Source: Alphaproteobacteria bacterium (lineage in GTDB: Bacteria > Pseudomonadota > Alphaproteobacteria > M2410). From it: a stretch of 64,000 nucleotides of DNA. Made by a program: the position numbers and the translations under genes. The DNA is taken from NCBI GenBank assembly GCA_030614785.1, contig JAUWTJ010000001.1:1-64000 (forward strand), given 5' to 3'. Below the pieces are notes generated by a model that saw only the letters and a program-made list of their open reading frames with translations, ran no database searches and was not told the DNA's origin. Shown in pieces: positions 49,508-52,146 of this stretch; within the stretch, counting starts at the first letter, position 1; each line of letters opens with the position of its first letter.

Positions 49508-49599
49508 TTCACTTTTTGTTAATAAAAATTCTCTTTGCAACGCCTGTTTTTCATGTCAGAATTCGACTCAATGTTCAATCAACGAAAGGAGGTGATCCA

Positions 49600-49680
49600 A
49601 TGTTCAGTGAGACATATTGGATTTTTAAGGACTCGAGTAATTCTACTTGCAAGTCGGGGCAACCTCCTTCGAGTAAATAG
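49600..49680 (+). CDS. Putative 26-aa peptide behind an unusually long Shine-Dalgarno
   Basis: ATG at 49600: MFSETYWIFKDSSNSTCKSGQPPSSK; 16-nt match GAAAGGAGGTGATCCA (49584..49599) to the complement of the 16S 3' tail, immediately before ATG. Confidence 0.55.
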   Translation: MFSETYWIFKDSSNSTCKSGQPPSSK

Positions 49681-49728
49681 ATTGCAAGATCTGGAAAGAT
49701 CACGAGTTTGAAAAATCCGGACTCGCGG

Positions 49729-49754
49729 GGGCCGCTCGAAAGAGCGGCCCTTTT
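49729..49754 (+). terminator. Rho-independent terminator between the 26-aa ORF and the thioesterase gene
   Basis: GGGCCGCTC-GAAA-GAGCGGCCC then TTTT. Confidence 0.85.
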
Positions 49755-49846
49755 CCATTTGTGCCTTTACTTCCCCCTGAGTGATGGCCTGGGATTTTAA
49801 TCCTTATACTTACGACATAAGCACCAATGACCCGGACGATACTACA

Positions 49847-51675: not shown

Positions 51676-52146
51676 ATGTCAGAAGACTTTATAGAAGACC
51701 CGAAAATTGGCGACATCGAGAGCCCGGCGCTGCGCGATTTCTTCAGCATCTGGCAAACCTTGTGTGAAGAACACGGATCGCCAGCGCGCGCGGATTTTTC
51801 GCTGACCCTGTTTGCCGAGCATCTGCCCCATATGGCCATCAATGAATATGACCGGGACACCGGCCGCTTCTTCGTCAGGTTGTTTGGATCCGGCTATGTA
51901 AACGGGACTGGCGCCGACCTGACAAACAAATTTGTTGATGAAATTCCCAATACCGAAGGTCTGCTGGCCCGGTACGCATGGCTTGTCGAGAACAAGCGCC
52001 CCTATCTGTCCCGGGGCAATAAATTGGACTGGAGCTCAAAAAATTACCGAAACTACAATGTCCTCGCCTGCCCCCTGTTCGATGATCTGGGGGACGTTGC
52101 TACTTTGATGTTCAGGATCGAGTTTTCAGACCCGGCAGATCTTTGA
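51676..52146 (+). CDS. PAS-like domain protein
   Basis: 157-aa; ALRDFFSIWQTLCEEHG...RFFVRLFGSGYVNGTGADLTNKFVDEI, resembles PAS_5-type proteins. Confidence 0.6.
   Translation: MSEDFIEDPKIGDIESPALRDFFSIWQTLCEEHGSPARADFSLTLFAEHLPHMAINEYDRDTGRFFVRLFGSGYVNGTGADLTNKFVDEIPNTEGLLARYAWLVENKRPYLSRGNKLDWSSKNYRNYNVLACPLFDDLGDVATLMFRIEFSDPADL

Follow-up and report, generated by a model that had tools for sequence, protein, structure and literature searches.

A Divergent CC2171-Type RNA of Alphaproteobacteria with a Super-Shine-Dalgarno Sequence and a Probably Translated Mini-ORF: The Ribosome as a Possible Fold-Changing Ligand

Introduction

What is encoded by a short intergenic region in which an open reading frame (ORF) of 26 codons stands directly behind a sequence complementary to the whole free 3' tail of 16S rRNA and ends shortly before an intrinsic terminator? 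This question is raised by a locus in a 64,000-nt stretch of an alphaproteobacterial contig, which is called the window below. A sequence-only reading of this DNA had offered a leader peptide or attenuator, a stand-alone micropeptide, or a small RNA (sRNA) with an anti-Shine-Dalgarno segment, and had recognised no known peptide family. The 16-nt Shine-Dalgarno (SD) match, the ATG, the 26-codon frame and the internal ACCTCCTT were all found exactly where that reading had placed them, as was the terminator before the next gene, with its 11-bp stem and GAAA loop at 49727-49752 followed by U's. The features of the locus are collected in Table 1.

Table 1. Predicted RNA unit and its parts (positions of the window)
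Feature	Position	Strand	Composition and remarks
Promoter-like pair	49535..49562	+	TTGCAA (49535-49540) and CAGAAT (49557-49562), 16-nt spacer; putative, from sequence
Predicted CC2171-type (RF01867) RNA, about 190 nt	49569..49757	+	Ends inferred
A/C-rich conserved leader	49574..49583	+	TTCAATCAAC; family consensus TTCAACAAC
Super-SD	49584..49598	+	GAAAGGAGGTGATCC; fully complementary to the 16S tail GGATCACCTCCTTTC; match extends to 49599
Mini-ORF	49600..49680	+	ATG at 49600, 26 codons, then TAG (49678-49680); translation MFSETYWIFKDSSNSTCKSGQPPSSK
P1, 5' arm	49607..49635	+	GTGAG (49607-49611), TTGGATTTTT (49617-49626), GGACTCG (49629-49635); from the fold computed with the SD and the start kept unpaired
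Site of P2, a local hairpin of the family (CGGAG-CARC-CTCCG)	49655..49671	+	Degenerate here: CGGGGCAACCTCCTTCG; from alignments, pair counts and clade comparison
SD-complementary segment within the P2 position	49662..49669	+	ACCTCCTT; complementary to SD bases 49586-49593
P1, 3' arm	49703..49726	+	CGAGTTT (49703-49709), AAAAATCCGG (49711-49720), CTCGC (49722-49726); from fold and pair counts
Intrinsic terminator	49727..49754	+	11-bp stem with GAAA loop (49727-49752), then U tail

Identity and distribution of the RNA

The Caulobacter sRNA CC2171 is said to have been first described by Landt et al. in 2008. The Rfam scan that had been proposed for the locus was silent at the gathering threshold, while the permissive search returned the corresponding model, RF01867, over its full length (49576-49750, model positions 1-159), with 33.9 bits as against a gathering score of 75 bits; this was the only RF01867 match in the whole genome (E 2.7e-5), and neither a tRNA nor a tmRNA was found. 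The cut-off is reached in just 13 of 387 genomes of the class, which means that the curated model is narrow, and the locus, as judged by sequence comparison, is a divergent and remote homologue of RF01867, not a curated member. Because RF01867 also yields terminator-only false matches (L253-L255 and L258, with E of 5e-5 to 7e-4 per genome), an independent model, R1, was trained on 23 relatives, the window and the Caulobacter-type loci being left out. The window was recovered by R1 at 49573-49754 with 101.8 bits and an E-value (rough by the construction of the model) of 3.3e-27, and the model also detects L122 and L138, which RF01867 itself accepts at its cut-off; thus R1 and RF01867 describe one family, and by both searches the locus does have a known relative. 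At its gathering score many true homologues escape RF01867, and the present loci would allow this model to be rebuilt.

By R1, all four genomes belonging to the window's family carry one copy, and the RNA was detected in 103 of the 387 alphaproteobacterial genomes, a sample of the class, almost always in a single copy; it is therefore not indispensable to the class. Among the named carriers are Caulobacter vibrioides, Brevundimonas, Phenylobacterium, Bosea, Methylobacterium, Bradyrhizobium, Salipiger and Roseicella. As the loci were first gathered by means of the SD pattern, that collection carries a bias for the SD itself. Two R1 copies, one of the SHCH and one of the SHGS type (L073 and L074), were met in one genome only (G015).

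In plasmids only short pieces were met, none of them covering more than 19% of the query. In viral contigs the pattern matched six times; four or five of these matches look like family members, perhaps as host sequence or integrated elements; one match (L265) precedes an unrelated ORF. The Bradyrhizobium-type copies (L104, L109, L110 and L148; L261, L262 and L264) carry a near-invariant 14-codon ORF (VSYLKRCHLAGIAR) and have, about 140 nt upstream, a tRNA gene in divergent orientation; some of them lie in IMG/VR contigs; a tRNA integration site is possibly marked by these copies.

Gene context

In the window the RNA lies between genes for an acyl-CoA dehydrogenase and a thioesterase; the latter, which the sequence-only reading had taken for a PaaI-type thioesterase gene, is on the same strand, and its product has the 4HBT fold (Pfam PF03061). 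The neighbours differ among the window, G002, G006 and the syntenic pair G001/G003, and in this pair the downstream gene is convergent. Over 167 loci, the next gene, where one was called, is oppositely oriented in 85 and co-directional in 69, and 226 of the 258 neighbour clusters are singletons, all these counts being approximate, as they come from a crude ORF caller. Such unrelated neighbours argue for a stand-alone RNA, not a cis leader of the thioesterase gene. No homologues of the thioesterase were found in viral contigs. Elsewhere in the window, a 156-aa ORF with no Pfam match (51676..52146) adjoins an aminotransferase gene.

The borders of the unit are consistent with the same view. The promoter-like pair matches in 4/6 and 4/6 positions, under the limit of the promoter scanner, and coincides with a T-rich block kept 50-54 nt upstream of GGAGG in relatives; transcription is predicted to start at about 49569. 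In the leader, A and C occupy positions -11 to -9 before GGAGG at 78-89% over the family. Framed by the T-rich -35-like block, the AAC-rich leader and the terminator, the RNA of about 190 nt is, from these sequence features, most likely a stand-alone gene.

The super-SD and the 16S tail

The 16-mer GAAAGGAGGTGATCCA (49584-49599) occurs as a single perfect copy in the window and in the genome of 3.86 Mb, where the sites closest to it differ by 2 bases and a search with the reversed control pattern gives no match. The 3' tail of 16S rRNA reads ...GCGGCTGGATCACCTCCTTTCTAAGGA (...GGCTGGATCACCTCCTTTCTAAGGA) in both L312 and L313, two genomes carrying the RNA, and by these tails GAAAGGAGGTGATCC is the exact complement of GGATCACCTCCTTTC; the 16S ends were found in 2 of 24 genomes, the window's own not among them, being perhaps masked or missing elsewhere. 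The tail assumed in the sequence-only reading is thus a real one in these two genomes, and the match goes far beyond a normal SD; the SD:16S duplex is predicted at -26.8 kcal/mol. For comparison, Schrader et al. (PMC4117421) give an SD for just 24.6% of the Caulobacter coding sequences (CDSs). An rRNA remnant was also considered as the origin of the 16-mer and was ruled out, since the antisense-16S identity ends at the 16-mer borders.

The mini-ORF: frame kept, peptide free

In relatives detected with the start codon left unconstrained, ATG, GTG or TTG follows the SD, and the base that precedes it varies freely; the claims on the start codon rest mainly on the RF01867 and R1 hits, and the frame test on the SD-seeded collection. 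Among 193 members gathered with no length filter, the first stop in frame 0 falls at codons 14-36 in 99%, a share that drops to 35% and 29% when the other two frames are read, the stops being TGA in 100, TAG in 47 and TAA in 46 of them; the sister ORFs in G001, G002, G003 and G006 all have 26 codons. Conservation of the start and the frame is comparative evidence for translation, and the mini-ORF behind the extreme SD is very probably translated.

The peptide itself varies as if it were free. Across 44 independent close pairs, the synonymous fraction was 0.215 against a neutral 0.234 +/- 0.023, with 104, 132 and 105 changes at the three codon positions; at this level of comparison, no selection on the amino-acid sequence is visible, and the residues common to the ORFs of the window's clade, WIF and EQPP, fall in stretches of the RNA that belong to P1 and P2. 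The peptide had no Pfam match, and the proposed tblastn search of the 26 residues in 96 relatives returned nothing significant besides the window itself, a match in G001 with E = 0.79 later proving to be a true homologue. A length and a frame that are conserved without a conserved peptide suggest that being translated matters, not the peptide.

At four loci (L024, L041, L243 and L305), the super-SD is followed by an ORF of 55-57 aa instead of 14-36 aa, whose products look secreted or lipoprotein-like, with a hydrophobic Ala-rich start and then Cys; this points to a role of the peptide in those four loci. Five Rhodobacterales-like loci (L092, L094, L097, L100 and L127) have an 18-codon ORF (VSR..LE.GVGT) and, after its stop, a conserved CCTCC that can pair with the in-ORF TTGGAG, a part of P1. 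This CCTCC was considered as an anti-SD mimic and set aside, as the P1 pairing with TTGGAG explains it at least as well.

Helix P1 and the alternative folds

The RNA contains P1, a long-range helix between codons ~2-12 and the bases just before the terminator, which in the window consists of GTGAG:CTCGC, TTGGATTTTT:AAAAATCCGG and GGACTCG:CGAGTTT. When the arms were swapped between members, the own partners gave -25.7 kcal/mol and the swapped ones -17.4 kcal/mol, a difference reached by 0 of 20,000 permutations; within the SHC and MSS subfamilies it was 0 of 10,000 each, also for the part beyond codon 5, and for the Rhodobacterales-like loci, a smaller group, it was 19 of 10,000, these counts not being exact probabilities because the sequences are related. 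Against shuffled partners the mean z was -2.3. In 18 modelled pairs (7 of P1, 5 of P2 and 6 of the terminator), 110 cells were changed on both sides, as against 35 in shuffled and 16-56 in slid controls, on a model-fitted alignment that leans towards structure; the swap test is free of such a lean. The helix between codons 2-5 and the pre-terminator bases, which is drawn in the Rfam consensus of RF01867, is present here as well. By these comparisons P1 is strongly covarying and kept by selection. The covariance modelling that the sequence-only reading had proposed bears out the terminator as well, whose helix is 95.5% paired and whose six modelled pairs all show both-side changes across relatives.

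The sequestration of the SD by ACCTCCTT, as had been put forward, is a different matter. The 8-nt complementarity is real and, with a z of -2.7 against dinucleotide shuffles, somewhat above chance in the window. However, it is not supported as the organising principle of the RNA: it is private to the window within the clade, the sister genomes keeping there only CCTCC or ACCTCC, with the CCTCC(G) inside the local hairpin CGGAG-CARC-CTCCG, and the covarying helix is P1. Over the family, complementarity to the SD is mildly enriched (mean z -1.1), reaching at least 8 nt in 7 of 105 members as against about 1% of shuffles, and the predicted accessibility of the SD varies widely.

In the minimum-energy fold of the window RNA (-68.3 kcal/mol), the SD and the start codon are hidden through ACCTCCTT and a start-codon hairpin, while with the SD and the start held open the P1 fold is predicted at -61.1 kcal/mol, the two predicted folds being mutually exclusive. 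The energy of the SD:16S duplex could, by these models, pay for the refolding. A switch is accordingly plausible in the window and not established for the family; since the closed fold partly rests on the 8-nt match that is absent in the sisters, the switch may be window-specific or not real, and P1 alone is no proof of it.

Interpretation

Homology, the stand-alone context, conservation of the start and the frame, covariation of P1 and the lack of peptide selection are supported by the computation. The explanation favoured here, to which a probability of roughly 0.5 is given, is a stand-alone, divergent RNA of the CC2171 family that carries a very probably translated mini-ORF and for which the ribosome would be the fold-changing ligand. 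The super-SD, being complementary to the whole free 16S tail, would confer a very high predicted affinity for the 30S subunit, and selection keeps the SD, the start codon, the length and frame of the ORF and P1, leaving the peptide sequence free. In the free RNA of this genome the SD and the start are predicted to be hidden; occupation of the SD is predicted to make the body fold anew, into P1 and the terminator, and translation of the ORF would then have to reopen P1. An initiating ribosome covers the region around the first codons, and as P1 begins within these codons, it overlaps the region so covered. The output may be a report of 30S availability or translation status through the stability of the RNA or its exposed segments; alternatively, initiating ribosomes may be held in a standby state. 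The full mechanism, in which the 15-bp duplex with the 16S tail and the obligatory translation of a sequence-free mini-ORF would toggle two folds and let the RNA sense or buffer free 30S subunits or the translation status, is put forward tentatively and should be held as rather doubtful.

In a rival idea the locus is a small mRNA, a micropeptide of 14-36 aa is the functional molecule and the strong SD merely ensures a high output. The conserved start and frame, the WIF- and EQPP-type residues common to the sister ORFs and the secreted-looking products of the four loci with longer ORFs speak for it; the 44 pairs show no synonymous excess, the shared residues fall in RNA segments of P1 and P2, and tblastn brought up no clear relative in spite of the presence of the gene, a Pfam match being likewise absent. 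Thus, of the stand-alone micropeptide of the sequence-only reading, the separate transcript and the micro-ORF behind an extreme SD are retained, while a peptide kept for its sequence is not, and the micropeptide as the functional molecule is considered unlikely. Still less probable is base-pairing in trans with the ORF as a secondary feature, the RNA acting as a sponge of alphaR8-type anti-SD sRNAs in the manner of CrfA, or through pairing of its CCTCC with the SDs of mRNAs. The family is classed as sRNA by Rfam, the super-SD includes GGAGG, which is able to pair with CCUCC, and CrfA does sponge SisA-D via pairing with UUUCCUCCCU (PMC12559287); however, the conserved 15-mer complements the 16S tail exactly and not UUUCCUCCCU, the start codon and the frame are kept, and the downstream part shows over the family only the mild enrichment in SD complementarity given above.

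Two further explanations come out far weaker. Control of the thioesterase gene by a cis leader or attenuator, as the sequence-only reading had allowed, would fit the terminator that stands between the ORF and this same-strand gene; the downstream gene is not conserved in the sisters, being convergent in two of them, and the neighbours over the 167 loci are unrelated and of mixed orientation, which makes such control highly improbable. Strong SDs and stable folds can have trivial origins, and the locus might be an ordinary expression unit with a chance ORF and no regulatory meaning; the detection in 103 genomes, almost always as one copy, the covariation and frame conservation and the sparsity of SDs in the class speak so much against this that it is held to be the least credible of all. 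With regard to the favoured ribosome-responsive RNA, what Rfam holds as a narrow sRNA family spreads across much of Alphaproteobacteria, and, should the RNA indeed sense ribosomes, it would be a simple bacterial gauge of translational capacity, testable in Caulobacter.

Comparison with known systems

The open literature yielded nothing on the function of CC2171 or BjrC1505, nor any description of the CC2171 ORF or of the match to the 16S tail; as the search covered the open literature, novelty is provisional, and on this basis the complementarity to the whole 16S tail and the reading frame kept without its peptide are apparently new. Rfam 15 added one covarying pair to CC2171 (PMC11701678), a Mesorhizobium survey includes an RF01867 candidate with sequenced coordinates (PMC5596092), and two previously predicted Caulobacter ncRNAs are in fact translated, according to Schrader et al. 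(PMC4117421). The window RNA shares with RF01867 CC2171 the AAC leader, the super-SD, the start codon, the P1 arms, the terminator and homology over the full length, whereas the Caulobacter-type SHC codons and the GACAATGG arm are replaced in the window, P1 being kept by compensatory change; Rfam describes an sRNA, and the present analysis contributes the match to the 16S tail and the very probable translation of the ORF.

The rnTrpL/peTrpL of Sinorhizobium (PMC7298713; PMC10117765) is likewise a small alphaproteobacterial RNA with a short ORF (14 aa) and a terminator, but it is a leaderless trpE attenuator RNA whose peptide acts in trans, while the SD of the window RNA is extreme, no gene is linked to it and its peptide shows no selection. 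SD- or anti-SD-like sequences in small alphaproteobacterial RNAs are also known from alphaR8 (SisA-D, MmgR) and its CrfA sponge (PMC12559287); alphaR8 carries UUUCCUCCCU, with which CrfA pairs, and this core is absent from 49569-49757, where the element is instead an exact complement of the 16S tail before an ORF. Long SD:16S pairing at start codons occurs also in the extended SD motifs of Staphylococcus aureus (PMC13009471), which are reported to be a general feature of the initiation sites of that organism, whereas here a single perfect site stands in a whole genome of a class in which SDs are sparse.
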